Shown in pieces: positions 37,834-58,967 of a DNA stretch of 64,000 nt. The stretch is from assembly GCF_022669155.1 (NCBI RefSeq), contig NZ_JALBVB010000023.1:1-64000 (forward strand), given 5' to 3'. A model generated the notes under the pieces. The model did no database searches. It saw nothing but the letters and a program-made list of their open reading frames with translations, and was not told the DNA's origin. Every line of letters starts with the position of its first letter. Position 1 is the stretch's first letter. This DNA comes from Kineococcus sp. TRM81007. GTDB taxonomy: Bacteria > Actinomycetota > Actinomycetes > Actinomycetales > Kineococcaceae. The position numbers and the translations under genes are program-made.

Positions 37834-38253
37834 TCACCGGCTCCACAGCTGCTGCTCCATGCCCTCGACGAGCTTTTCGGCGTGCCGGACCATCGACGCC
37901 GCCTTCTGCGCGGTCATGTACGTGGTGCCGTACTGGGACGTCGTCTTGTCGGCCAAGAGGCGGCGCAGTGAGGTGGCGAGCTCGTCGGCGCCACGGATGC
38001 TCCCGAGCACGCGAACGGCTTCCTGGTGGTCCTGCCCCTGCGGGCGCTGGTGGAGGACGTGACCGCAGACGGCGTCGCTGGCAGCTATGCCGGCCAGGAC
38101 GGCGAGGGCGCTCGCGACACGAGGGAGGGCGGGATCGGAGGTGTCGTCCTCGACCATGCGGGCGACCTCGAGGAACTTGCGCGCCGCCTCGGCGCGCACC
38201 TGCACCTCCGCTGCCGTCACGGGTTGCATCCGGGGGCCGGGGCGGGGAGTCAT
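37834..38253 (-). CDS. HEPN-like protein, partner of the nucleotidyltransferase
   Basis: A 139-aa all-helical protein with conserved core GIAASDAVC...RPQGQDHQEAVRVLG and a C-terminal helix pair (LRRLLADKTTSQYGTTYMTAQKA). It follows the nucleotidyltransferase gene with an ATGA overlap, the order and size expected for a HEPN-MNT type pair. An Arg-x5-His spacing (RPQGQDH) is present but the paralogue remnant at 58626-58967 has Arg-x3-His, so I do not claim the catalytic HEPN motif. In known HEPN/MNT modules HEPN is an RNase toxin and the nucleotidyltransferase AMPylates it as antitoxin. Assignment here rests on partner, size and helical pattern. Confidence 0.6.
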   Translation of the reverse strand: MTPRPGPRMQPVTAAEVQVRAEAARKFLEVARMVEDDTSDPALPRVASALAVLAGIAASDAVCGHVLHQRPQGQDHQEAVRVLGSIRGADELATSLRRLLADKTTSQYGTTYMTAQKAASMVRHAEKLVEGMEQQLWSR

Positions 38254-38882
38254 CGAATCGCCTTCAGGAGTCGCTGGATCGTCGGGCCGAGGATCGTCAC
38301 GGCGTCCCGCTGCCACTCGGCGACGATGGGGTCGCCTGCGGCGACCGCGCGAGCGAGGTCGGCGTGACGGGTCGCGTAGACCTGCACTTCGTTGCCCGTC
38401 CACCGCTGCCCGCGAACCTCCAGGTCGGCGACGATTCGGTCGGTGGTGTCGTCAGCGGTGCCGTCGGGGACGACGAGGAGGAGGTCGATGTCGCTGTCCG
38501 CTCCCGCTTCTCCTCGGGCGAAGGAGCCGAAGTAGGCCAGCGAGACGTGCCGGTCGTCGGGGAGGTGCTGGTGCACCAGAGCGCGCAGCCGATCGTCCAG
38601 GTCGGCCCGAGGGGTGAAGGCGGCGAGCGCCGCAGTCAAGGCGGGGTGGGCGAGGTGCTCCTCGTTGAGGTGGTACTCGCGCGCCTGCCCGACGCGGCGC
38701 GCTTCGACGATCCCCTGCTCGACCAGGCGGTCGAGCGCGACCAGGGTGCCCCGGTAGGAGCCGGTCGCGCTGACGCGGTGCACCTCGCGTCCGGTCATCG
38801 GAGTGGTGCGCCGCCAGAGGGTGTGGAGCACGGCGCCTTGAACGGTGGGGAACAGCGCGGAGAGGGGGTGGACCCAGTTCAC
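38250..38882 (-). CDS. Winged-helix plus MNT-type nucleotidyltransferase
   Basis: A 210-aa protein with two parts: an N-terminal winged helix (TGREVHRVSATGSYRGTLVALDRLVEQGIVEARR, about residues 30-65) and a minimal nucleotidyltransferase domain with YFGSFARGEAGADSDIDLLLVV, the G-S-x10-D-x-D motif with both catalytic aspartates. In MNT/HEPN modules the transferase modifies the toxin; here the winged helix could also let it repress its own operon. The GTG start has GGGGGAGG upstream, and a 44-bp near-perfect palindrome lies 22 bp before the start, fitting autoregulation. Confidence 0.82.
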   Translation of the reverse strand: MNWVHPLSALFPTVQGAVLHTLWRRTTPMTGREVHRVSATGSYRGTLVALDRLVEQGIVEARRVGQAREYHLNEEHLAHPALTAALAAFTPRADLDDRLRALVHQHLPDDRHVSLAYFGSFARGEAGADSDIDLLLVVPDGTADDTTDRIVADLEVRGQRWTGNEVQVYATRHADLARAVAAGDPIVAEWQRDAVTILGPTIQRLLKAIR

Positions 38883-44624: not shown

Positions 44625-44938
44625 CGATCGCGCTGCATCCGTGATCACTGGCTCACTCTGGCAGGAGACGGACTGCGTGGAGAGCTGTCGCGTGTCACGG
44701 GTGGCGAATGGCATGACAGGCCTCGGGCGGTACCGCGGCAGATGGCGAGCTGCGTCGCATCGATCAAGAACCACGCAAAGTCATGTGTTGTTGCTTAATG
44801 TAGCTATCGTGCGGAGGGAGGCGCAGAGCGCGTGGAGCTGATGACGAAGAGCTGCGGCAACGCGGTGATGGCGGCGGTGTCGGCTGCAGTGCCCTCGCCG
44901 TGCCTCGCCATGTCAGCTCGACGCGCGAGGTGACGGCC

Positions 44939-46762
44939 GTGTCCGACGACCTCTTCTGCTATCCCACCGCCGCCGGCCTCGCATGGCTGCGCGACGCCGA
45001 CGTCCGAGCCGTCCTCGTGATCGGTACGCCGGACCGAGCAGACGTCGACGCCCTGCTCGCACTGCCCGTCGAGGTGCGCGAGCTGCGGGCTCCGGTCGAG
45101 CGCGGTCTCCTGGTGCGAGGGGTCTACGGCATCCACCGCAAGGGCAGGTGGGAGGCGGTCGTCTCCTGCGTCGGCGCTCCGATCGCCACGACCGTGTCCG
45201 CGCGGCACCGCCGCACGGACGACGGGGACCGCGAGCACCTCGCGGAGGCGAGGGACCTCTTCCTCGACGAGTGGGAGGAGGGCCGGCCGCTCCTCGGCAA
45301 CGCTCCCGTGCAGGTGGGCGACATCGCCGAGCTGCGCGGTGCGGGCAAGTACGGGCGGGTCGTCGAGGTCACTCGAGAGGTCTCCGGGCACCGCGTGGTG
45401 CTCGCCGTCGACGGGGTCCGGCACGTGGTGACCGCCGACTCCGTCATCCGGATGGACGGAGACCCGCGGGATCCCTCCTTCTGGGCCTCCGGTGCACCTG
45501 CCGGCGCCTCGGCCATCGGGCGGACCCTGACGTGGGCGAAGCTCCGCAACCCGCTGTCTGACACCCTGTACTTCTACGCGACGTCGCGCACGGTCTTCCG
45601 GGCGTACCAGTTCAAGCCGGCCATCAAGGTGCTGAACTCCCCGCACGGCAGGTTGCTCATCGCGGACGAGGTCGGCCTGGGCAAGACCATCGAGGCCGGG
45701 CTGGTCTGGACGGAGCTGGAGCAGCGCAACGCCCTGCGCAGGACGCTGGTGGTCACCCCGTCGTCGCTGACCCGCAAGTGGCAGATGGAGATGGAGCGCC
45801 GCTTCGACCGGCGGCTGGACCGCATCACGCCGACGGCCCTGGCCGAGCTCGCCGACGACCTGGGCCACGACCGCGACCGCGAGCTGCACGGCATCATCTC
45901 CATCGAGTCCCTGCGCAGCGCGTCCGAGGTCCTCGACGCGCTGACGCAGGTGGGTCCCCGCTTCGACCTGGTCATCGTCGACGAGGCGCACTCCTTCCGC
46001 AACGAGGGCACCAGGTCCCACGTCCTCGGCTCCCTCCTGTCGGACTGGGCTGACTACCTCCTCTTCCTGTCGGCCACGCCCATCAACCTACGCGCGCGGG
46101 ACCTGTTCAACCTGCTCGACCAGGGGCTGTTCGAGTCCGCAAAGGTGTTCGAGCTGCAGCTCGAACCGAACCAGCACCTCAACGCCGTCGAGCGCGGTAC
46201 CGCCGCTGGTCGTTCCCCCGGAAAGCTGCTGCGCGAGCTGGACGCGATCCGTCACCTCGAGCTCGGAGGTCCTGTCGTCACCCGACCCGACTTCCAGCAC
46301 CTGAGGTCGATCCTGGCCACCGCCGCCGAGCTGGACGCCCCGGCGCGCGCAGAGGTCAAGCGCCTCGTCGCGGAGCACAACACGCTCAGCGGCGTCATGC
46401 CCCGCACCCGCAAGGTGGACGTGGCCGATGCCAAGGCCGTCCGAGAGCCGCACAACATCGACGTGCGACTGACCGGACCCGAGAAGGACTTCTACGAGGC
46501 GGTGCACACCACGCTGGTCGCCGACGCCGAGTGCAAGGGCGTCCCGCTCGGCGTCGCCCTGCAGATGCCTCTGCGCCACGCGGCCAGCTGCATGCCGGCG
46601 ATGCACCAGCGGATGCTCTCACCGGCCTCCGAGGCCTTCCGCAAGTCGTTGGACGACTTCGACGAGGACGTCGACCGGAAGAGGTGGCGGACCTCAGCGC
46701 GGTCCCGGTCCTCGCCCGTCCCCTGGGACCGGACAGCAAGATCGGCCCGCGCGCCGCCCTGA
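44939..46762 (+). pseudogene. Truncated, frameshifted SNF2/RapA-type helicase
   Basis: The N-terminal half of a SNF2-like helicase: Walker A LLIADEVGLGKTIEAGL (about residue 240), Walker B VIVDEAHSFRNEG and motif III LFLSATPIN are intact, but motifs V and VI of the second RecA domain are absent. Around 46678-46690 the frame is lost; the expected continuation (VADLSAVPVLARPLGPDSKI) is found in another plus frame and runs out near 46745. The GTG at 44939 has GAGG 8 nt upstream. The original could have been a DISARM DrmD-like or another defence-island helicase. It is cut off at the edge of the type III cassette, so it is most likely inactive. Confidence 0.8.
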
Positions 46763-46870: not shown

Positions 46871-49800
46871 TCACAGGAGGGTGCCGTTGGCCGAGTCGGG
46901 CACGGGTTCGCGGTTGTCGAAGTGGGCGTCCGCGTCCTGGATGGTCTTCACCGGCGCGGCATACTTGATGTCGGAGAGGCCGATGTCGACACGGATCTGC
47001 TTGAAGTGCTCGCGCGCTGCGAGAATCTTTCCTCTCTCTTCAGCCCGGAGCAGGCTGATGTCGTTCGTCCCTTTGGTCTCGAATACGACGTACTGACTGC
47101 CGTCAGGGCGCACTGCCATCACGGCCCAGTCAGGGTTGTATGGACCGAGCGGTGTCGGGATGGTGAAGCTGGCTGGGAGCTTCACGAACGCCTTGACCTC
47201 CTCGCGCTCACGCAGAAGGGCGAGTGCGAACTCGCGCTCGATCCCGGAGTCCACGACGACGTACTTGTAGGGCGACTTCTTCTCGAACGAAACGGGAACC
47301 TTGTCGTCACCCTCCACGGTGATGACATTGCCGCCCGGTCCCGTGTAACCCGAGAGGTCCGCTTCCGAAAGGAGTGTCTTGGGGTATCTGCGCTCACGCT
47401 CTGGCCGCGACGGATCCACCAGCTCGTAGTGCAATCCTTTGAGAAGGAACGACTCCTTGGCGTGCTCCAAAGTCGCCGCGACTCGGTCGACGTAGACCTG
47501 CGGATTTCGCCTGAACCAATGCAGGGTTCCCGACTCGGTCAGCACGTGCGCGATGGTAGCGCGCGTCAACTTCGTTCGATCTGCGAGAACCGAAAGAATG
47601 TCGGGCAGCTCCTCGCTGTCGGCATAGACCACGTCGGCTCGGCGCCCGTTGCTGGTCTCGGCGGAGAGACCACTTTGATCGATCTTGTCGACAACATGGG
47701 TCAGCCATTCGCCCTTGCGCTGCTGAATCGGAGGCATGTCCTTGAGCGCGGTCACCATGGCCACCCGAAGGTCAGTCTCGTCGACCTGGAGCCGGAACTC
47801 CGTGCGGTGCTGGATACGATCCCACAGATCCCGGAACTCCTTGCTCTCAAGCCGCTCGGTAACCACCGGCACGGAGACGCGTGTGCCTGCCTTCTTGATG
47901 TCAAGGGGCTTGGCAAGTCGCTTGATGAGCTGCCGGATCTGGCGCTGGGCCTCGTCGTCCTCGACGTTGTCCTCAACAAGGAGTCGCAACTCCTCGGTGT
48001 CGTTCTGCACCGCCTCGCGCAGGCTGTCCTGGACCTTGCCCTTGCTGTCGATGTAGCCGGCTGCGAGCAACGCCTTGAATAGGGCCTGACCCGCATCAGC
48101 ACCCACGGGCACGGGATCGCCACCACCGGTCGGCTTGTAGGTCAGGCGCGCGAAACCGTCCACAGTGACGACGCCGAACTCGATTCCAAGGTCCTCGGCA
48201 AGCTCGCGCTGGAGTTGCTCGGCGAACTCCTCGTAGGACTCGTTCGCGATCACCGTCAGGCGGTTCACGTCGAAGCCGCGCACGCGGTTGCCGTCTCCAT
48301 CCACACAAAGCCGAAGGCCGCGACCGATGCTCTGACGGCGCCAACGCTCGGATCCCATGTTCCTCAGCACGCAGATCTGGAAGACGTTGGGGTTGTCCCA
48401 ACCTTCCTGAAGCGCAGAGTGACTGAAGATGAATCGGATGGCCGTGCCCGGAGTGGTGAGCCCGACCTTGTCCTTCATGATCTGTTCGTAAGCGAGGCCG
48501 GCCTGCTGACGCCCCTTGTCGCTGGTCTCCTTGGTGTCGACCAGGCGATCGGCCTTGCCGCGGGCGCGGTCGATCGAGAAGTAGCCTTGATGGGCCTCTG
48601 CAGCCACGGCATCCGCTGGCCGCGCTCCGAGCAGGTGATTGAACTCCGGCTCGGCAGCGATCTTGGCGTATTCCTCCTCAAAGATCCGCGCGTATTCGCC
48701 CGGCTGCTCGTCCGCGTTCTCGTCGTACTGGCGATACTTCGCAACGGAGTCGACGAAGAACAGGCTCAAGACCTTGATCTTGCGGCCGTGTGTAGCGAAC
48801 TCGTCCTCCTTGTGGAGGTGCTGGCGGATGGTCTGAGCGATCATCTGTCGGGCGCGCTCGTCGATGCTGATCTCAGCGCCCATGGCCTCGCCGACCTTGA
48901 CCTCGCTGTAGTCGGTGAATCGAACGTGTTGGTTGCCTTCAACGACGCTGATGCTGTTGACGATCAGGTCCCGATAGAGGTCACGGTTCGTATAGTCGCC
49001 CAGGTTGTCGTTGTTGCGGACGGTGAAGGCTTTACGAGTGACTTTTCCGTTCAGTTCGGCATCGAGCTCTACACGTGCAGTGATATTGGCGCCTGTGCGC
49101 TTCACGCTCAGGAGCCGGACGTACGGCGAGACGCCGCTTCCCTCGGTGACGAGGTCGTCGACCTCAATCTGCTTGACGAGCTGCTTCTCGTACGCCCCGA
49201 TGGCGTCCAGCCGGTAGACGAGGTTGCCCTTGTCGAACTTCGGGTGTGTGGCCGAGTAGCGGATCACTGCAGCCGAGTTCATTCCCTCGATGGCGAGGCG
49301 GCCGGCGCCCTTCTTCTTCCGCGGATTGCCGTCGTCGCCGTAGACGCTTTGGGGTTCGTCGACGATTACGATCGGGTTCGTCGCGCGGACCAACGACATC
49401 GGGACTTCGTTGTCGAGGTCCTCCGCCGGCCTGTTGATCTTCGCTGTCGCCTTGTTCATCGCCGCGACCGTGATAATCATGATTTCGATGCCAGACGAGG
49501 TCGCGAACGACCGCAGCCGAGAGACGTTGTCGCCAGAGTACTGAAACGCCTGCATCGGCGGCTTCGCATACAGGGCGTCGAAGTGTTCTTTGAGCATCTT
49601 GATCGAGGTCATAACGCCCTCGTTGATGGCGACTGATGGCACGACGATGACGAACTTGGTGAACCCGTACAGCGCATTGAGCTCGTAAATTGTGCGCAAG
49701 TACACATACGTTTTTCCGGTGCCGGTCTCCATCTCGACGGTGAAGTTCATCGAGTCGAGGGACGCTTCGTGCTCGAGTCCAATGGCGTTCTGCACGGTGT

Positions 49801-50023
49801 GGAGGTTCTCGAGGATCTTCTCCGGCGACAGGCGGAGTCGGTTTCCGACACCTTCGGTCGAGATCGTAGGAGTGCTCGATCCACCCTCGAACGGGAGCCA
49901 TGCGCCAGGATGCGCATGCACGGTGAAGTGGGACGTCAGCGACTCTTGCCCCTTAAACAGACCCGTCACCGCATCGATTGCAGCGCGCTGGTAGTCGAGG
50001 TCAGCCTCGAAGGTGAATTTCAT
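46871..50023 (-). CDS. res: Type III restriction enzyme, Res subunit
   Basis: A 1050-aa Res protein. SF2 helicase motifs: Walker A EMETGTGKTYVYL, the type III-specific DEPQ box (VIVDEPQSVYG), motif III IRYSATHPKF and motif VI RRQSIGRGLRL. The C-terminus holds the PD-(D/E)XK nuclease: NPDWAVMAV, then YVVFETKG. With Mod it cleaves DNA carrying two unmethylated head-to-head sites and needs ATP. The ATG at 50023 has GGAG about 10 nt upstream and follows mod by 3 nt. The coding DNA is clearly less GC-rich than the flanks, suggesting transfer. All motifs are intact, so it looks active. Confidence 0.94.
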   Translation of the reverse strand: MKFTFEADLDYQRAAIDAVTGLFKGQESLTSHFTVHAHPGAWLPFEGGSSTPTISTEGVGNRLRLSPEKILENLHTVQNAIGLEHEASLDSMNFTVEMETGTGKTYVYLRTIYELNALYGFTKFVIVVPSVAINEGVMTSIKMLKEHFDALYAKPPMQAFQYSGDNVSRLRSFATSSGIEIMIITVAAMNKATAKINRPAEDLDNEVPMSLVRATNPIVIVDEPQSVYGDDGNPRKKKGAGRLAIEGMNSAAVIRYSATHPKFDKGNLVYRLDAIGAYEKQLVKQIEVDDLVTEGSGVSPYVRLLSVKRTGANITARVELDAELNGKVTRKAFTVRNNDNLGDYTNRDLYRDLIVNSISVVEGNQHVRFTDYSEVKVGEAMGAEISIDERARQMIAQTIRQHLHKEDEFATHGRKIKVLSLFFVDSVAKYRQYDENADEQPGEYARIFEEEYAKIAAEPEFNHLLGARPADAVAAEAHQGYFSIDRARGKADRLVDTKETSDKGRQQAGLAYEQIMKDKVGLTTPGTAIRFIFSHSALQEGWDNPNVFQICVLRNMGSERWRRQSIGRGLRLCVDGDGNRVRGFDVNRLTVIANESYEEFAEQLQRELAEDLGIEFGVVTVDGFARLTYKPTGGGDPVPVGADAGQALFKALLAAGYIDSKGKVQDSLREAVQNDTEELRLLVEDNVEDDEAQRQIRQLIKRLAKPLDIKKAGTRVSVPVVTERLESKEFRDLWDRIQHRTEFRLQVDETDLRVAMVTALKDMPPIQQRKGEWLTHVVDKIDQSGLSAETSNGRRADVVYADSEELPDILSVLADRTKLTRATIAHVLTESGTLHWFRRNPQVYVDRVAATLEHAKESFLLKGLHYELVDPSRPERERRYPKTLLSEADLSGYTGPGGNVITVEGDDKVPVSFEKKSPYKYVVVDSGIEREFALALLREREEVKAFVKLPASFTIPTPLGPYNPDWAVMAVRPDGSQYVVFETKGTNDISLLRAEERGKILAAREHFKQIRVDIGLSDIKYAAPVKTIQDADAHFDNREPVPDSANGTLL

Positions 50024-50026
50024 GAC

Positions 50027-52006
50027 TCAGATGCTCCGGAACGTGTTGATGCCGGCCTGCTTGAGCGCCTCGGCGAGGTTGAGCTTCGCCGATGAATCGG
50101 CGAAGCCCGTGTCTCGCACCACCACCGTGATGTCTGAGTCGACCGGCTCGTCGTCGCGCCATCCGACAATAGCCTTCGCGACCTGGTCGGCCGCCGCCAC
50201 GTCGACGTCCGTCCCGAAGAAGGCGTACAGCGTGCCCGCGACGCTGTAGAGGGCGCTGCCCGCCACCTCACGGGTCCCAACCGGAGTCACTAGATCGATG
50301 CCGAGACGCAGCATCACCTCGACAAGGAGGTCGTCAGTAGTCCTGCCGGCGACAAGGTTGTCGACGGCGGAGAGAAGATCGAGCTCGCCACTACCGTCCC
50401 AGGGCCTCACGTTGCTGTCAGCGAGGCGGTAGGAACGAAACCCGCAGTCCATCGGCTCGGCCTCGTGGTGCCGTGAGTTAGCGATCTGCTCTCCGGCGCG
50501 CCGGAGGCGCTCGCGGGTAATTGCAGCAATTGTCTCATACCCGGGCTTCTGGATCGGTTCGTCGAGCTGTACCAGGACATAGCGCCGGGTACCGCCGTCT
50601 GACGCGTTGAGCTCCATGACGGCATGTCCAGTCGATCCAGATCCAGCGAAGAAGTCGAGAACAATCGCATCTCTCCGGCCACCGCAGACAGCATTTACCC
50701 AGCGGCCGATCACGCCGGTATCTTTTGGATAGTCGAAGACGCCAGGTCCGAGCAGCGAAGCGACAGCATCAGATGCATTCGCGCGGTCCTGGTTGACCGT
50801 GGGCCGGATCGACTGGTCGGCCGTCTCATGGAGATACCGCTTGTATGACGCTGTCTGCGTGTGGTCTCTACCGAACAAGATCCGACCCTCCGCGAGCAAA
50901 GCGTCCATCCTTTCTCGCGAATACGCCCACCCGTTTGGATGCATCTGAATTGGCTGCCGCGTTACCGGATGGAGGATCTCGTACTGCAGGTTGGGCCGTG
51001 GGTTAGGACTGCGCAAGTCGCTTCGCCGGTAGGCACGCCCAGCATCATCAATCTCCGAGTAGTTGGTCAGGCCCTTCTCGGTGTCCGGATTCGACCGCCA
51101 CCACTTGCGGAACTCTTGCGTCGCAACCGCTGAATCGCCTCCCGAAGCCGACCACGCTCGCTCGGCGGCAGCCACAACCAAGTCGTATCCACGCTTCGGC
51201 TCTTTCCAGCGGATGTCGTTCTCCACCAATAGCCGCTTGTTCTTGGCGTAGATGAGCATGTAGTCGAGCCCACCAGAAGTGAACCTAGAGTCGTTTTTGC
51301 CAGAACCCTGCCAAACCGCGTTGGCGGCGAAGTTCTCCGCGCCGAAGACGCGGTCGAGGAGCAACTTGAGCCGCGCATGCTCTGTGTCGTCGATGGCCAC
51401 GATGGCGACGCCGGTCTCCTTGAGGAGGTGGTGCGCAACGAGGAGGCGCGGGTACATCATCGACAACCACTTCGAGTGGGATGAGCCCCCGGTTCGGCGC
51501 TCCCCCGCTCGGTCAGAACCGGCCCCGACTTGAAGGATGCCGTCTACGTCTCGGAGCCCAGCGCTGGTCTCATGTTCGGCTGAGCTCGCGTTGATCGTGT
51601 CGTTGTAGACGAAGTCGTTGCCGGTGTTGTACGGCGGGTCGATGTAGATGACGTCGACCGAGTTCGTGTAGGCGCGGCGTAGGAGGCGAAGGACCTCTAG
51701 GTTGTCGCCTTCAATGACGATGTTCTTGGTGCTTTCCCATGCAACCGACTCCTCCGGCTTGGGAAGCAGGGTCATCGTCGCGGGAATCGTTGAAAGCCGC
51801 CTCGCGTCCGACATCCCGGGCCACCGCAGTCCAAAGCCCTCGGCGCCTGCCGGCGACCCGGACTCACCCAGCAGATCCCGCAGCACGTCCAGGTCGACGG
51901 TGCCGTCCACGACGGCGTCTGGAAAGAGCCGGGCGAGTTCGGCGACATTGCTCCGCGCCTCGCCGGGGCCGTCGAGGTCGCTGAGTCGGGTGAAGTCTTC
52001 GGTCAC
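50027..52006 (-). CDS. mod: Type III DNA methyltransferase, Mod subunit
   Basis: About 659 aa. A beta-class adenine-N6 (or cytosine-N4) methyltransferase: motif IV VIYIDPPYNTGNDF comes before motif I LDFFAGSGSTGHAV, with the target-recognition region between them (about residues 200-400). Mod alone protects host DNA and directs Res. The GTG at 52006 has AAGGA about 10 nt upstream; the ATG at 52030 is an alternative without a ribosome-binding site. It sits between the DUF4391 gene (40 bp) and res (3 bp). The recognition sequence cannot be read from the protein. Confidence 0.93.
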   Translation of the reverse strand: MTEDFTRLSDLDGPGEARSNVAELARLFPDAVVDGTVDLDVLRDLLGESGSPAGAEGFGLRWPGMSDARRLSTIPATMTLLPKPEESVAWESTKNIVIEGDNLEVLRLLRRAYTNSVDVIYIDPPYNTGNDFVYNDTINASSAEHETSAGLRDVDGILQVGAGSDRAGERRTGGSSHSKWLSMMYPRLLVAHHLLKETGVAIVAIDDTEHARLKLLLDRVFGAENFAANAVWQGSGKNDSRFTSGGLDYMLIYAKNKRLLVENDIRWKEPKRGYDLVVAAAERAWSASGGDSAVATQEFRKWWRSNPDTEKGLTNYSEIDDAGRAYRRSDLRSPNPRPNLQYEILHPVTRQPIQMHPNGWAYSRERMDALLAEGRILFGRDHTQTASYKRYLHETADQSIRPTVNQDRANASDAVASLLGPGVFDYPKDTGVIGRWVNAVCGGRRDAIVLDFFAGSGSTGHAVMELNASDGGTRRYVLVQLDEPIQKPGYETIAAITRERLRRAGEQIANSRHHEAEPMDCGFRSYRLADSNVRPWDGSGELDLLSAVDNLVAGRTTDDLLVEVMLRLGIDLVTPVGTREVAGSALYSVAGTLYAFFGTDVDVAAADQVAKAIVGWRDDEPVDSDITVVVRDTGFADSSAKLNLAEALKQAGINTFRSI

Positions 52007-52045
52007 GAGTCCTACTTCCTTAGGTTCCATATGTTGTTTGCGGCG

Positions 52046-52792
52046 TCAGTGCGTCGGGGCGGGGTTGTAAAGGGCAGCCCTGACAGTTTGTATCCGATCC
52101 CGGAGCTCACGAGCCCGCGTATTCAGCACGATACGACCCGAGTGGCTTCGTTCGCTCTGGGCAGCGCGGACAGTGCTCGCAAGATCACCCTCGAGCGCCG
52201 TCAGCTCGCGGCGCATCTGAATGATCTGCTCCGTGGTGAGGCCAGCGACGGTCGGCTGCCCACGCGCGGCGACAACCCGGGTGAGGTCGCGATAGAAGAT
52301 TGCGAGGTCCGCACGGTCGAGGACACTGAACCGGAGGGATCCTGGAGCAAGCTGATTGAGCGGTGCGAACGTACGCGCATCAATCACGGACCGGTTGGCG
52401 TTGTTCGCGCTGATGTGCGTGAGTGCGAGGGAGATCGCGTCATCGCCCTTGCTCGACGTCACGAACAGGATGACCGGGCGCGCCATGCTTCGATGGAGTA
52501 GGTCGATCAACTTTGTCTGATCCGCGCTGGTGGCTCGGGGGGCGAGCACAAGGTGAAGCACCGGGATGTCGCCGACCACATCCGGCCCAGCACGACCCGC
52601 CGGTATCTGAGCAGTCTCCGGCCGGATGACCCCAACGACAGCACTGGCGACGTCGACAGCACGGTCGACGATCTTGTTATCGATGCCGAGGTCCGCAGCG
52701 GCGTCGGCGAGCATCACCTTGGTGATGCGCTCACGGATGCGGGCAGCCGGCGGGAGCGCCAGGACGTCGGCCGGGTCGGCGCGCTCGCTCAC
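52046..52792 (-). CDS. DUF4391 protein of the type III cassette
   Basis: About 248 aa, helical at the N-terminus, with ITKVMLADAAADL, VVGDIPVLHLVLAPR and a long C-terminal coiled-coil-like stretch (MRRELTALEGDLASTVRAAQSE). This matches DUF4391, a family repeatedly found beside type III mod/res and helicase genes, with unknown function. Starting at GTG 52792 gives a GTGA overlap with the helicase stop; a GTG at 52810 is also possible. The position between helicase and mod in a tight operon argues that it is a working part of the system. Confidence 0.82.
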   Translation of the reverse strand: MSERADPADVLALPPAARIRERITKVMLADAAADLGIDNKIVDRAVDVASAVVGVIRPETAQIPAGRAGPDVVGDIPVLHLVLAPRATSADQTKLIDLLHRSMARPVILFVTSSKGDDAISLALTHISANNANRSVIDARTFAPLNQLAPGSLRFSVLDRADLAIFYRDLTRVVAARGQPTVAGLTTEQIIQMRRELTALEGDLASTVRAAQSERSHSGRIVLNTRARELRDRIQTVRAALYNPAPTH

Positions 52793-55700
52793 GAGACGAT
52801 CGCCATCCACGCGACCACATCCACCGCGTCCTGCCCGGCGCTCTGGTCTTCGAGGCCGAGCGTCGAGACGCCGGCGGAAAAGAGAGATGCGACGGCGCTC
52901 TCCTTCGACTTGCCGCTGACCGCTTCAACCGCGACTTCGAGGAGATTCCGATAAGCCAACATGTCGCGCCCGTTGCGGGTCGAGCGGTTGAAGGTGGCGA
53001 GTGCCTCGGCATCCGGCTCGACCTGGGAGAGCGCGTGGTGTCGAAGTACGTCGAGGGCCAGCTTCGGCTGATCAACGGGATGCGCGAGTTGACCGTCTTG
53101 TTTGACGTAGGCGAGGACATATGGGGCAAGCGGGTAATCCGCTGTGATGGCCTTGGATACCTCCCGAAGGCGGAGGAGAAAGATCGCTCCGGGCTGGACC
53201 CCATCTGCCTGAAGCTTCGAGTCGAACCGAGTCACGCCGAAGAGAGCCAGCGGCCAGCGTTCGATCTCGACGAGGTCGTCTTCAGGGCGGGATGCGGCGT
53301 CCATGCGGAAGTCCGACAAGGTGAGATCAGTGATGCTCAGACCGCCAGCAAGGTCCTCCATCGTCGGCGCGGCGAGCTTCATCTGCTCGAGTTGCTGGCG
53401 GCGGTAATCCAGATCGTTCATCGTCGCCGCGTCGGTCGAGTCGAGAACGTTCTCTTCGCCCGTCGCTGAGACGTCGAGGAGCGTCATCCGGCTCGAGACG
53501 CGCTTCTCAAGGTTGATGTATGACTCAAGGTCGATGTTGGGCCAGAAGTTGACGAGGTGAACGGTCCTATTGGTCGAGCCGAGTCGGTCGACGCGACCAA
53601 AGCGCTGCACGATCCGGACCGGATTCCAGTGGATGTCGTAATTCACGACCGTGTCGCAGTCCTGGAGGTTCTGACCCTCGCTGATCGTGTCGGTTGCGAT
53701 GACGATGTCGATCTGCGGTCCGTCCGTATCACCGCCCTTCGACCGGGGTGAGAACGCGGCCAAGACGTCGTGCATGGTCCTGTGCGTGATGCCCGCGGTG
53801 GTCGTGGTCCGGTCGCCGGTGATCAGAGCAACGTCGAGACCGAGATCAGTCGAGATCCACGGTGCAAGATTCTTGTAGAGGTACTCGGCGGTATCCGAGT
53901 AAGCCGTGAAGATCAGGACCTTCTGATTGTCGGCGTTCGTGGGGTCCGCTGCCTTACGGCGAAGGAGGTCGCGAAGCTCTGCGAGCTTCGCGTCGCGTGT
54001 GACGTCGACCGCCTGGACCTCTGCCAACACGGTGCGGAGGTTGTCACGGTCCTCGGCGAGATCCTGGCGCCAGCGGACGCGGTCCACGTCCGCGAGGAAG
54101 ACTTTGACCTTGCCGCCGACGATGTCTTCAAGCTCCTGGTCGTCCATATCGACCTCGGCGAGATCGGCGAAGCTGTTGATTGAGACCGCTTCGTCATCGC
54201 GAGAGTCGAAATCGTCGAGTCGTTCGATCGCCGACTCGATCTTCTGGAGGATCTTGCCGACGGTGAGCGTCAGCGAATGGACAGACGACTCAAGTCGTTT
54301 GAGCAGCCCGATCCGCAGGAGGTGAACGACGTTGTTCTCACGGTCAGTCTGCTTCCAGACGCGCGAGCCACCTGTGCGGAGCTGGTGGTCGTAGAGGTCG
54401 GCGTACTTCCGTTTCGCCTTATCCAGAACATACGACATCGGCTTGTATGCGGCGAGGTTGAGCATGAGGATCGCCGAGTTGAGATCGGCAAGCGGCATGA
54501 GCAGTCCATCTGAGTCGATCTCCGGCGCGAGGTTCATCGGCGGGACGCGCTCGGGAAACCGCCCGACGTCCGCGGTTCCGTAATACTTCTCGATGTGCTT
54601 GCGGGACCGCGCGATGGTGATGAGGTCGAGCAGACGGATGTAATCCATGCCAAGCGCACCAAGCAGTGCCTCGCTCGTGCGCTGGTCGTCAGGACTGTTC
54701 TGCCAGCTCGTGAACCGCGCCTGGGCCTTGCGGAGGGTGCTCTCGATGCTCTTGATGCCACTGGCGTTGAGCGCGGTGTCGTCACCCTCGGTTGCAAAGA
54801 GGACCTGGTTCTTCAGGTCGGCGAGGCGGGTATTGACCGGCGTAGCGCTGAGCATCAGGACCTTCGTCTTCACGCCAGATTTGAAGACTTCATTCATGAG
54901 GCGCTCGTAGCGGGTGGTCCGCTCCTTGACCTGCGGGTTGTTCCGGAAGTTGTGAGACTCGTCGATCACGACCAGGTCGTAGTTGCCCCAGTTGATGTGG
55001 GAGAGGTCGATGTCGCCAGACGTGCCACGTTCACGACTGAGGTCCGTGTGGTTCAGGACGTCGTAGTTCAAGCGATCGGCAACAAGCGGGTTGCGGGTGT
55101 CGTTCGTACGGTAGAGGGTCCAGTTCTCGCGAAGCCGCTTCGGGGCGAGTACGAGAACTCGGTCATTTCGGAGCTCGTAGTACTTGATGACGGCCAGCGC
55201 TTCGAATGTCTTACCGAGACCAACGCTGTCGGCGAGGATGCAGCCGTTGTGACGGTCGAGCTTCTCAATGGCGCCGAGGACGCCGTCCTTCTGAAACTTG
55301 TAGAGCTTGGACCAGACGGCGGTATCAAAGAATCCGGTTCGGGCGCGATCCGCGGTCTCCTTGCCTGCCTCGTCGACGAAGTCGCCAAAGAGGCTCGTCA
55401 GGATTCGGAGATAGACCGCCTCGGGCGCGTTGTCTCTGGCCAACGTTCGCGCCGTGTCGAGGAATCTCTCCTGCGCGGACTCGGACGAGGTCGGCTCGTG
55501 CCAAACCTTCTCGAAGTTGAGGGCCAGCTCGGCGACCAACCCTTCGTCCGCGATGTCTCGGGGGAACAGCAACGAGGGTGAGGCGACAAGGCCCAAGCCT
55601 TCGGCCTCGAAGCCCGCTCCATGAATCGCGTACGAGCTGGCTCCGTTGGCAACGATCCAGGAGTCACGACTCGGACGTCGAAGGCTGCGAACTTCAAGTT

Positions 55701-55965
55701 TCTCTTCAGCCCAGGTCAGAAAATCCTGCGCGATCTGGTGCTGATCGAGGCGCGCGCGCAGAACGTGCTCCTGATCGAGCCCGTTGAGGGGAACATCATC
55801 GAGCGAGCCGTCGCGCAGAAGAAGGCGCGCACGGACATCTGCAAGTTCCGCCTTGAGAGCGTCGTAGACAAAGAGCGAGAATGAATCCGACAGCACGTCG
55901 ACCTGTTCGGCGCCCGCCAGGCGCTCGCGAAGGCGCTCAACAAGAGGAGTCGTGTCACCGGTCAT
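52789..55965 (-). CDS. SNF2-type helicase of the type III cassette
   Basis: A 1058-aa helicase. The N-terminus contains QVDVLSDSFSLFVYDAL, a PLD-like lead seen in related proteins. The helicase core is complete: Walker A ILADSVGLGKTFEAL, Walker B VVIDESHNFRN, motif III MLSATPVNTRL, motif V TDTISEGQNLQDCD and motif VI VQRFGRVDRLGS. It starts at ATG 55965 with GGAGG upstream and leads the four-gene operon helicase-DUF4391-mod-res. Unlike the truncated helicase at 44.9-46.8 kb it is whole. It may translocate on DNA to assist or extend restriction, but the role is not established. Confidence 0.9.
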   Translation of the reverse strand: MTGDTTPLVERLRERLAGAEQVDVLSDSFSLFVYDALKAELADVRARLLLRDGSLDDVPLNGLDQEHVLRARLDQHQIAQDFLTWAEEKLEVRSLRRPSRDSWIVANGASSYAIHGAGFEAEGLGLVASPSLLFPRDIADEGLVAELALNFEKVWHEPTSSESAQERFLDTARTLARDNAPEAVYLRILTSLFGDFVDEAGKETADRARTGFFDTAVWSKLYKFQKDGVLGAIEKLDRHNGCILADSVGLGKTFEALAVIKYYELRNDRVLVLAPKRLRENWTLYRTNDTRNPLVADRLNYDVLNHTDLSRERGTSGDIDLSHINWGNYDLVVIDESHNFRNNPQVKERTTRYERLMNEVFKSGVKTKVLMLSATPVNTRLADLKNQVLFATEGDDTALNASGIKSIESTLRKAQARFTSWQNSPDDQRTSEALLGALGMDYIRLLDLITIARSRKHIEKYYGTADVGRFPERVPPMNLAPEIDSDGLLMPLADLNSAILMLNLAAYKPMSYVLDKAKRKYADLYDHQLRTGGSRVWKQTDRENNVVHLLRIGLLKRLESSVHSLTLTVGKILQKIESAIERLDDFDSRDDEAVSINSFADLAEVDMDDQELEDIVGGKVKVFLADVDRVRWRQDLAEDRDNLRTVLAEVQAVDVTRDAKLAELRDLLRRKAADPTNADNQKVLIFTAYSDTAEYLYKNLAPWISTDLGLDVALITGDRTTTTAGITHRTMHDVLAAFSPRSKGGDTDGPQIDIVIATDTISEGQNLQDCDTVVNYDIHWNPVRIVQRFGRVDRLGSTNRTVHLVNFWPNIDLESYINLEKRVSSRMTLLDVSATGEENVLDSTDAATMNDLDYRRQQLEQMKLAAPTMEDLAGGLSITDLTLSDFRMDAASRPEDDLVEIERWPLALFGVTRFDSKLQADGVQPGAIFLLRLREVSKAITADYPLAPYVLAYVKQDGQLAHPVDQPKLALDVLRHHALSQVEPDAEALATFNRSTRNGRDMLAYRNLLEVAVEAVSGKSKESAVASLFSAGVSTLGLEDQSAGQDAVDVVAWMAIVS

Positions 55966-56037
55966 GAGCGACGCCTCCAGCGAGCGTGACGACCGTCCCA
56001 TCAGTGGTCGCAGCGGCGCACAAGATCCAAATCCCCG

Positions 56038-56178: not shown

Positions 56179-56269
56179 TGTCCACCTATGGCCGGTTGTC
56201 TGAGCGTAGTGAGCGGGTACCGCAAAGGAGGTGTGGGGCGCGTCCTGAGCATCCCGTGGTCGTCGCCGG

Positions 56270-57326
56270 GTGTCTGCCCCTGACCTCCTCGTGGAGCAGG
56301 AGGTGCTCCTACCCGCCGACGTCATCGCCGACGTCTCGGACGCCGAGCGCGCCGTACAGCGCTTCAATACCTCCGACCTGCCCTACCGCGGCTACGAGGC
56401 GATCGCCCGGCTACTTCTGCGCCGAGGCTGTCACCTCCTCGTGCATCGAAGAACTGGAAATCGGCGGTCGCCGGCTGGCGCGCGCCGACGCGGCACGCGC
56501 CGCGGACGGCTCCTCGCCCGACGAGGGCGCCGCGGAGGTGCTCGGCAACATCGACGCGATACGCGCCGCCGTCGACCATGTCGCCCACCGGCCCCGCGTG
56601 GGCGTCGACGGCATCCTCGACATTCACCGCGCCCTGCTGGGTGGTACGCGCGGCGCCTTCTGGGCGGGCCAGGTGCGCGACCGGCAGAACTGGATCGGCG
56701 GATCCAGTTACAACCCCTGCCGCGCGGACTTCGTGCCCCGCCGCCCGGCGAGGTGCCGGCGCTGCTGGACGACCTGGCCGCCTACCTGGAGTCCGACGGG
56801 CACGCCCCGCTCGTGTAGGCGGCGATCGCCCACGCGCAGTTCGAGACCATCCACCCCTTCGCCGACGGCAAAGGCCACACCGGCCGCGCGCTGATCCACG
56901 TCGTCCTCACCCGCCGCGGCCTCAGCCCGCTTCACGTGCCGCCGATCAGCCTCGTGCTGGCCACCCGCAGCGCCGACTACGTCGCCGGCCTCACCGCCTA
57001 CTGGGCCGACGGCCTCGCCGACTGGCTCGCCGTCTTCAGCCGCGACGACGGAGGCGTGCGAGTGCGTCGCCGGGCTCACCACCGGCCTCGCCGACCTGCG
57101 GCAGCGGTGGCGCGACGCGGTCGGCACCGTCCGCGTCGGCTCGACGACGGCCCAGCTGATCGACGAGGTGCTTCCGCAGACGCCGGTCCTCACCGTCGCG
57201 CAGCTGGTGCGCCTCACCGGACGCTCCGCCCAGGCCGTCAACGAGGCTGTCGACCGGTTGTACTCCGCGGGCGTCCTGCGGCTAGCATCAGCTGACCCGC
57301 TGCCGCAGACGCTTTCCCTCGGCTAG
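56270..57326 (+). pseudogene. Decayed Fic-family protein gene
   Basis: Pieces of one Fic protein are spread over different plus frames: VLLPADVIADVSDAERAVQRF (from 56270), then after a shift near 56415 AEAVTSSCIEELEIGGRRLARA and NWIGGSSYNPCRADFVP, after a second shift near 56735 EVPALLDDLAAYLESDG, a TAG at 56816, and the Fic motif region HPFADGKGHTGRALIHV, then a third shift near 57060 before a winged-helix-like tail ending at 57326. The motif deviates from HPFx[DE]GNGRxGR (Asn to Lys, Arg to His). A strong AAAGGAGG at 56224-56231 remains upstream. It is a pseudogene. Confidence 0.8.
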
Positions 57327-57583
57327 TGATGCACGGCGTCCCGGTGGTCGCCATGGAGGAGAGCGTTGACCTGGATGGCGACCTCATAACGACCTGCCAC
57401 CAGCCGCCGGCGCTCCGGCACTTCCTCGACGACTACGCCGACACGCTGGACGTCGGCTGGCTCGTACCGCACTCCGCGTGGCCGGCGCACGTCTCGCGGC
57501 CTCTCAAGCGGTATGAGGGCGCTGCCAGGCTGGACGAAGCTTCCCCTCAATATCCAGCCTGGCCGCGCATGACCAGTGTGACA
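57327..57583. other. Stretch without a recognisable gene
   Basis: Between the Fic remnant and the LexA-box region. A 105-codon plus frame opens here but has no ribosome-binding site, runs through the LexA box and resembles nothing I know; I treat it as non-coding or decayed sequence. Confidence 0.5.
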
Positions 57584-57620
57584 CAGGTCGAACGTGTGTT
57601 CGAGCATTGCAATCGACCTG
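57584..57620. promoter_or_regulatory. LexA (SOS) box within nested inverted repeats
   Basis: TCGAAC-GTGT-GTTCGA at 57588-57603 is a perfect match to the actinobacterial SOS box TCGAAC-N4-GTTCGA. It overlaps a second inverted repeat, CAGGTCGA (57584-57591) with TCGACCTG (57613-57620). The predicted start of the GIY-YIG gene is 50 bp downstream. Confidence 0.75.
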
Positions 57621-57640
57621 CGACTGTCTGTAGCGCTCAC

Positions 57641-57646
57641 TAGCGT
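57641..57646 (+). promoter_or_regulatory. -10-like hexamer, leaderless start
   Basis: TAGCGT, 6 nt before the ATG at 57653. The LexA box ends 38 bp upstream of it. Confidence 0.55.
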
Positions 57647-57652
57647 GTCGGT

Positions 57653-58540
57653 ATGAGTGATGCGTCTGAGCACTTGTCGCTAGAGCGAAGCGGTGAAGAG
57701 CTACCAACGGGGGAGCTGCAGGACGCGGCAGTGAGCGATGAGTCCGTCGAGGACGACGAGCTGGCGGTGCCGCCGCACCTGGGCAAGGACCTCGATCCGG
57801 TACTCAAGAAGCAGCTGCACCACCTGCTGCTGGACCGCTCGAGTCAACTCGGCTCTGTCTACCGAGCCATGGTCGAGCACCCAGGCGCCGGCCCAACCGA
57901 GCTGCTGCCTTTCACGACCTGTGCCAATACCGGTGTCGTCGGAAATCGGCGAGTCATCGTCTACGCCGTCCTCGACGGCACGACTCCCGATGCGCCGTCG
58001 GTCGCGCTTCAAGCCGCTCGTACGGTGCGGACCCTCATCAAAAGGTCCATTGACCCACAGGTGATAGCGCACCTCGAAGCGGTACTGACACGCCTCGTCG
58101 ACCGAGCAGGCAGCGAGGAGGCGGTCGAGGCTGAGAACGTCCAGCTGGCGACTGAGTCGGCCAAGCTCCAGCAGGACCTGCAGACGGCGGCCGGCGTGTA
58201 CGTCTATACCTACCCGCACTACTGGCGGCACCCGTACATCGCAGACACCGAGCGGCGGCTGCTGAAGATCGGGCGCACGAAGAACCAGGCATGGAATCGT
58301 GTGCTGAGTCAGGCTCGGCGGACCGGCATGCCCGAGGACCCGGTACTGCTGCGCGTGTACAAGACGGGCGACCCGACGACCGCCGAGCGGCACTTCCACG
58401 CGCTCCTGGACGCGGCCGAGCACCAGCGCACTGCGGGCATTGCCGTCGGGACGGAGTGGTTCGTGACCACCATCGACTTCTGCGACGCCATCGCGGGCGC
58501 ACTCGGTTACGAGGTCCTCAAGGGATCAGTGGACGAGTAA
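57653..58540 (+). CDS. GIY-YIG/T5orf172-type nuclease-domain protein
   Basis: A 295-aa protein. The first 75 residues are acidic and linker-like; residues about 85-180 are helical, ending in a coiled-coil-like stretch (AVEAENVQLATESAKLQQDLQ). Residues about 183-285 match T5orf172, a GIY-YIG superfamily domain: GVYVYTYPHYW, RLLKIGRTKNQAWNRV, ERHFHALLDAAEHQR and GTEWFVTT. The GIY-YIG residues are diverged, as usual for this branch. A perfect LexA box and a TANNNT-N6-ATG promoter precede it, so it is probably induced by DNA damage. Role in repair, defence or phage response is open. Confidence 0.82.
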   Translation: MSDASEHLSLERSGEELPTGELQDAAVSDESVEDDELAVPPHLGKDLDPVLKKQLHHLLLDRSSQLGSVYRAMVEHPGAGPTELLPFTTCANTGVVGNRRVIVYAVLDGTTPDAPSVALQAARTVRTLIKRSIDPQVIAHLEAVLTRLVDRAGSEEAVEAENVQLATESAKLQQDLQTAAGVYVYTYPHYWRHPYIADTERRLLKIGRTKNQAWNRVLSQARRTGMPEDPVLLRVYKTGDPTTAERHFHALLDAAEHQRTAGIAVGTEWFVTTIDFCDAIAGALGYEVLKGSVDE

Positions 58541-58625
58541 GGGCCCTGGCCCTGGGCTGACCTGTCAGTCCAGGGCGGGACTCTTGAAGATCAGCTGCTG
58601 GTTCCAGTCCACGTGTTGGCCATAG

Positions 58626-58967
58626 GAACGGCTTTCGGAGGGCGGAACTCGTGCGGAGGAGTCCGACGACGGTCTCGCGACACCGCAGGTCGCCGCCTCG
58701 CTCGCGGTGTTGTGCGGGATCGCCGCCTCCGACGCCGTCTGCTGCAGCCGCCTGGGGCAGTGGTCCCGCGGTCAGGACCACCGTCAGGCCGTCGACCTAC
58801 TGGCGACCGTCCGCCCGGACGGTCCCGTGATGGCGACGGACCTGCGAAGGCTCCTGGAGATCAAAGACCAGGCGCACTACGCGGCCACAATGGTCTCCGC
58901 CGCCCGCGCCGAGCAGGCCGTCCAGTGGGCCCGCCGGCTCTACGACCTCGCGGTGCGTGCAGGCTAA
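58626..58967 (+). pseudogene. Remnant of a second HEPN-like gene
   Basis: A plus-strand frame opening after a stop at 58623 encodes VAASLAVLCGIAASDAVCCSRL...SRGQDHRQAVDLL...TDLRRLLEIKDQAHYAATMVS, clearly paralogous to the HEPN-like protein at 37834-38253 from about residue 25 to its end. The N-terminal helix and start codon are missing (first in-frame GTG at 58707), and no nucleotidyltransferase gene lies beside it. It is probably a decayed copy, though a short product from 58707 (86 aa) could still be made. Confidence 0.7.

Follow-up and report, generated by a model that had tools for sequence, protein, structure and literature searches.

A GIY-YIG (T5orf172) gene under a perfect LexA box beside a type III-like restriction operon in Kineococcus sp. 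TRM81007

The locus and its protein

The window analysed here is a 64,000-nt stretch of the genome of Kineococcus sp. TRM81007 (NZ_JALBVB010000023.1, positions 1 to 64,000). On its plus strand, at 57653-58540, lies a gene for a 295-aa protein which, from its reading frame, Pfam matches, alignment and a structure model, consists of an N-terminal helical domain (residues ~49-165) and a C-terminal T5orf172/GIY-YIG nuclease domain (residues ~181-280; 58193-58492, plus strand). A perfect LexA (SOS) box, TCGAAC-GTGT-GTTCGA, precedes the gene at 57588-57603.

To the left, on the minus strand, is a type III-like restriction operon. It comprises a type III restriction enzyme, Res (46871-50023; PADLOC REase_III, E 2.8e-258), a type III methyltransferase, Mod (50027-52030; PADLOC MTase_III, E 5.7e-164), a DUF4391 protein recognised by Pfam (52046-52810) and an HKD+Snf2 helicase (52789-56001; PADLOC C3a139, E 3.4e-120). 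A SNF2 helicase gene at 44900-46762 has no Helicase_C match and is probably truncated. A decayed Fic-like gene (56196-57326, plus strand; Fic_N E 0.0015, below cut-off) persists as pieces in several frames. A gene remnant at 58647-58967 (plus strand) matches a gene elsewhere in the window (37834-38403) at 44% over 97 aa; both are HEPN-like by reading and have no HEPN profile match. The first-pass annotation described the GIY-YIG gene as an intact gene among decayed defence genes. The reading frame is indeed intact, and the Fic-like gene and the remnant are broken; the type III set at 46871-56001 is intact, so that decay describes only part of the surroundings.

HKD+Snf2 is present in 9 of 286 genomes. 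At all nine loci (the window, L013 and L075-L081) DUF4391, Mod and Res occur in the same order, giving a conserved four-gene run; the order was established by tblastn at eight loci (Res is partial in the L013 and L081 stretches) and from the annotation of the window itself. Mod is found twice in tandem in L075, L077 and L081, with some copies aligned in pieces. A GIY-YIG gene lies near only two of the nine operons, in the window and in genome G348 (the other seven were viewed for ~8 kb on each side); this counts against the explanation favoured below. The gene is therefore an associate of the operon, and its status as a fixed subunit was rejected.

The C-terminal domain is supported by two overlapping Pfam matches: T5orf172 (PF10544) over residues 183-280 at 30.4 bits (cut-off 20) and MUG113 at 25.9 bits (cut-off 22.3). 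The protein has no match in NCBIfam and a single one in PHROGs (E 0.084). Thirteen full-length family members were collected: the window protein, one from Actinomycetospora soli (57% identical), one from a Curtobacterium plasmid (28%) and ten from other genomes. G181, Y183, K205, G207, R216, E245, E268, W269 and F270 are invariant in all thirteen; a GIYxY-like third tyrosine is found in eleven, and T5orf172 is matched at E<=0.01 in seven members and not in the other six. The family thus resembles the GIY-YIG superfamily in its invariant G, Y, K-G, R and E residues and in a C-terminal domain above the Pfam cut-off. It differs in its N-terminal helical domain, which has no Pfam name, and in being found near restriction genes and in none of the phage records and viral contigs searched. 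By analogy, R216 and E245 may be catalytic, and the protein is predicted to cleave DNA. PDC-S57, a PADLOC candidate, gives weak matches to 4 of the 13 members (best E 9.2e-6); in the window protein, the match is confined to residues 203-256 (E 0.0033).

No Pfam family matches the N-terminal part above cut-off. An AlphaFold2 model (two sequences) confidently builds this domain from helices (pLDDT of 72-93 for residues 51-160, averaged in steps of 10 residues). The nuclease part is modelled poorly (means of 33-56 over residues 171-295), which also counts against the favoured explanation. Foldseek of this model against PDB and BFVD returned nothing at E<=0.001, a further point against that explanation. 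When PDB sequences were searched with a profile, 12 reached E<=1 (best 0.082), and no nuclease was among them. A helix-turn-helix-like pattern suggests that the N-terminal domain reads DNA. The domain also occurs without a nuclease (L022) and fused to an AAA_5 protein (L026; 31% over 109 aa, E 6e-11; AAA_5 E 8e-22), which may be of the McrB type judging by its AAA_5 domain. The fusion gene (L026:106-1893, minus strand) lies behind an ORF that is methyltransferase-like by eye.

This architecture invites comparison with CMoRE, a GIY-YIG type IV restriction enzyme described as having an N-terminal nuclease with a GIYxY-YIG motif and a C-terminal modification-sensing domain (PMC12923530). Like CMoRE and PD-T4-3 in that account, the window protein is a single-gene, two-domain GIY-YIG protein with a GIYxY-like core; the core GVYVY...KIG resembles the CMoRE motif, and the third tyrosine is widely kept in the family. 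It could accordingly be a modification-dependent (type IV) restriction enzyme in its own right, with the LexA box serving as a local safety lock against self-damage. The N-terminal domain held in common with the presumed McrB-type AAA_5 protein would suit this, as would the restriction systems of several types near family members. The domain order is opposite to that reported for CMoRE (PMC12923530), as GIY-YIG lies at the C-terminus here (residues 183-280), and this reading is considered unlikely.

The LexA box and the upstream region

A pattern scan shows that TCGAACGTGTGTTCGA at 57588-57603 has 0 mismatches to TCGAAC-N4-GTTCGA and is the sole perfect match in the window. It also agrees at all positions with the ChIP-based LexA consensus reported for S. 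venezuelae, tCGAAC-N4-GNNCGa (PMC9380542). The end of the box is 49 nt from the ATG at 57653, placing it at -65 to -50. Two claims of the first-pass annotation are thereby borne out, namely a full match to the actinobacterial SOS consensus and a position about 50 bp ahead of the start.

Looser sites are common in this DNA. There are 12 window matches at <=2 mismatches (the perfect one and 11 others, each with 2 mismatches), vs 2.43 expected from shuffles; the weight therefore rests on the perfect match. A first-order Markov model of window composition predicts 0.003 perfect boxes in 64 kb and 0.21 in 4.22 Mb. The whole genome contains five, and the reversed-pattern control gives none; across 11 Kineococcus genomes there are 64 perfect boxes and no reversed ones. 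One of the five is located ~240 nt upstream of the assumed start of the strain's own lexA gene, whose product matches LexA_DNA_bind (E 2.1e-25) and S24 (E 1.3e-31) in Pfam; its half-sites are the same as those of the window box. With five boxes against an expectation of about 0.2, with lexA itself preceded by one, and with a genus total of 64 vs 0, a chance origin of the window box is unlikely. Based on this enrichment and on the lexA box, the GIY-YIG gene is likely to be under LexA control; the consensus fit suggests that LexA would bind here and that DNA damage would induce the gene.

The three remaining perfect boxes are one ahead of a DUF6504 gene and two (L002, L003) whose adjacent genes are without identified function. 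A perfect box is therefore not always at a known SOS gene, which counts against the favoured explanation. The small protein beside the L003 box has no match in a Pfam profile search; by eye it looks like another small protein which is likewise beside a perfect LexA box (L057) in the congener G010, and the two are possibly an unnamed SOS gene.

The homologues tell against a general rule. In the 300 bp ahead of the gene, none of the 12 other full-length members has a LexA box with 0 or 1 mismatch. The best site, in L011, has 2 mismatches and lies 276 nt upstream, inside another ORF; in the other 11 the best sites have 3 to 5 mismatches, and in two N-domain-only genes 5 and 3. A box before homologues was the check that the first-pass annotation had proposed, and it came out negative; SOS control as a family-wide trait was rejected, and the result counts against the favoured explanation. 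It limits the SOS claim to the strain's own lineage and does not refute it, because even the nearest homologue shares just 57% identity and sits within an operon; no close orthologues of the window gene were found.

A leaderless start was another earlier proposal. It is plausible by reading of the sequence, because TAGCGT (57641-57646, plus strand), a candidate -10 element for a leaderless transcript from the ATG, occupies -12 to -7; no promoter-like site came out of a sigma-70-type scan over 57300-58800. With the box at -65 to -50, the operator would be upstream of the likely core promoter, which again counts against the favoured explanation.

These observations bear on the possibility that the box has no function for the GIY-YIG gene and is a chance or leftover LexA site that leaves expression unaffected. 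The decayed left neighbour, the position of the box relative to the likely core promoter, its absence before all 12 homologues and the two further perfect boxes without identified target fit this possibility. The chance expectation for the window and the half-sites in common with the lexA box speak against it, as does the distance to the start, which is within the range for SOS genes in an excerpt of the S. venezuelae table (-14 to -199, with one at 91; lexA -53, dnaE2 -68; PMC9380542, positions as numbered in that excerpt). A non-functional box is quite improbable.

The box had also been described as nested in another inverted repeat. A repeat scan does find 8-nt arms, CAGGTCGA/TCGACCTG, at 57584-57620 (not assigned to a strand, like the box). 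Such repeats are ordinary: with spacers of 10-30 nt, 123 perfect 8-nt arm pairs exist in the window, or 1.9 per kb (longer repeats being counted repeatedly), and the centre of this pair is 6.5 nt away from that of the box. The outer repeat is probably incidental and was rejected as a meaningful element. Further upstream, at 57519-57568, is a hairpin with 16-nt arms. A search with the upstream region against the 11 genus genomes, including the strain's own, matched its own genome and two others over short lengths (67 and 44 nt); the stretch that holds the hairpin matches the congener G006 (L046) at 78% over 67 nt, and is perhaps an intergenic repeat.

Distribution and neighbours of the family

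The gene is rare. It is absent in 98 of 98 relatives, 10 of which are congeners, and there is one copy in the strain's own genome. Matches were found in 5/394 genomes of the class sample, 6/396 of the order sample (one N-domain only), 4/397 from the order of G348 (one N-domain only) and 1/396 of the phylum sample, this one being the strain itself; the samples overlap, and the own or centre genome is itself counted. GC content is 0.65 for the gene with its upstream region and 0.61-0.63 for Res, Mod and HKD+Snf2; the 0.65 of the gene vs 0.72 for the window would fit horizontal acquisition.

Family members are located in bacterial chromosomes and one plasmid. None was found in phage records, nor in two scans of viral contigs with short exact peptide patterns, by which distant relatives may be missed; as far as searched, a phage-borne gene was rejected. 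T5orf172 is described as a common domain of phage homing nucleases, often accompanied by CapR/DUF723-type zinc-finger domains (PMC10448857). The window family is related to these by domain and differs in having no phage carriage, as searched, and no zinc-finger domain: CapR/DUF723-type Pfam domains are absent from the window protein and from the members.

Restriction or defence genes lie near 10 of the 13 full-length members by profile or record annotation, a raw count from hand-picked neighbours with no random-region baseline; L014, L071 and L072, inspected by eye, are outside the ten. In A. soli (L007), a DruE-like helicase, a UvrD-type helicase and the GIY-YIG gene follow one another with 4-nt overlaps, and HmaA comes next. 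The G348 locus (L013) has the order ZacC, GIY-YIG, HKD+Snf2 (39% to that of the window), DUF4391, Mod and the start of Res. In L015 a type IIG-like enzyme and a 338-aa ORF precede the GIY-YIG gene, an NsnB-like gene follows it, and ZacB and ZacC are close by; in L070 the gene comes after hsdM, an hsdS-like ORF (by eye) and hsdR, again with ZacB and ZacC close by. Type I genes are near it in L016, type IIG in L067 and L068, and Orf5/HEC-06 in L069. The record annotation of L008 lists methylases, a restriction endonuclease and a RES-domain protein. By eye, methyltransferase-like ORFs are near the gene in L014 and L072, and none is recognised in L071. On this count, the family seems to be accessory to islands of restriction and defence genes.

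Several further features of these neighbourhoods were seen. ZacC, with ZacB in L015 and L070, recurs in type III-like (L013), type IIG (L015) and type I (L070) contexts; a text search of the literature found no paper on ZacABC or on PDC-S57. L072 has two 391-aa ORFs near the GIY-YIG gene which share 110 compared residues and are probably copies of an insertion sequence; a further ORF there, of 818 aa, begins in a way that looks GIY-YIG-like by eye.

Damage-induced expression had been suggested to point to DNA repair or to a response to phage or prophage. E. coli Cho is a LexA-controlled GIY-YIG nuclease, and a damage-induced repair nuclease analogous to it would agree with the perfect LexA box and with the invariant GIY-YIG core residues. 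The rarity of the gene, missing from all 98 relatives examined, its low GC and its defence-island context speak against this reading; in addition, the protein has no UvrC-type Pfam match and its homologues have no box. Because 10 of the 13 members are near restriction or defence genes, the repair reading is unsupported: a DNA repair role is unlikely, and a counterpart of Cho highly so. The response to phage fits better, yet the records and contigs searched held no copy of phage or prophage type.

There is a precedent, also within Kineococcus, for LexA boxes immediately ahead of accessory genes of nuclease type. In G010, 4 of 11 perfect boxes are directly ahead of DUF222 genes (L049, L051, L053, L054), a family which is here taken to cover the 13E12 proteins. 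The L051 box is a 16-mer identical to that of the window; its gene, the one of the four that was covered in full length, matches HNH weakly and below cut-off (E 0.009). One account places the 13E12 genes of M. tuberculosis with the dnaE2/ruvA regulon and ascribes mobile-element characteristics to them (PMC5005354); those of the DNA-damage regulon are given as HNH-type (PMC4181829). They differ from the window gene in being HNH-type rather than GIY-YIG (PMC4181829) and in occurring several per genome, with four boxes in G010.

The window gene could be a selfish or mobile homing-like nuclease that exploits the SOS response to spread itself, an idea put forward for the mycobacterial 13E12 HNH genes. 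This would be consistent with the G010 genes directly under perfect boxes (L051 alone among them with the weak HNH match), with the regulon and mobile-element traits reported for M. tuberculosis (PMC5005354) and with the use of T5orf172 in phage homing (PMC10448857). It is at odds with the single copy in the genome, with neighbours that are mostly restriction genes, and with the lack of members in phages and viral contigs (the contig scans using short exact peptide patterns). A homing-like nuclease is a minority possibility, and rather doubtful.

A proposed second-line nuclease

The favoured explanation, to which about an even chance is assigned, is a second-line restriction nuclease, acquired horizontally and induced by damage, that is accessory to restriction and defence islands. 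The gene product would be a two-domain nuclease with an N-terminal, helix-turn-helix-like domain for reading DNA and a C-terminal GIY-YIG (T5orf172) domain; the gene would have been gained horizontally beside the type III-like restriction operon. In the strain's own lineage, LexA would hold transcription off until RecA on single-stranded DNA brings about LexA self-cleavage and so releases the gene. The nuclease would then be made solely after DNA damage, such as that from phage replication or restriction breaks, and would cut foreign or damaged DNA as a second line. Protection against phage may follow from this; a defence role is favoured but unproven.

A known parallel for the regulation is SymE, described as a LexA-controlled, SOS-induced toxin encoded among restriction-modification operons, with an AbrB fold and antisense RNA control (PMC1891008). 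The window gene resembles symE, as presented there, in being a gene amid restriction-modification genes with SOS induction, which is predicted in the case of the window gene; it differs in encoding GIY-YIG in place of an AbrB-fold toxin under antisense RNA control (PMC1891008). A text search of the literature, with subscription papers beyond its reach, turned up no LexA-controlled T5orf172 gene among the titles of the matches listed; one match concerned the LexA of Bacteroidetes.

A broader proposal is put forward tentatively, at well below an even chance: a LexA-timed second line of restriction. It would consist of a stand-alone GIY-YIG family whose unnamed DNA-reading domain is common to McrB-type AAA proteins, which travels with type I, IIG and III-like systems, and which has been placed under SOS control in the lineage of this strain. 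If this is true, failure of first-line restriction, sensed as DNA damage, would switch on a second nuclease. The N-terminal domain would point to a recognition module common to GIY-YIG and AAA_5 (McrB-type) restriction proteins. Little is known about how restriction and other defence genes are timed; a textbook SOS operator ahead of a nuclease gene in a defence island gives a simple, testable prediction.
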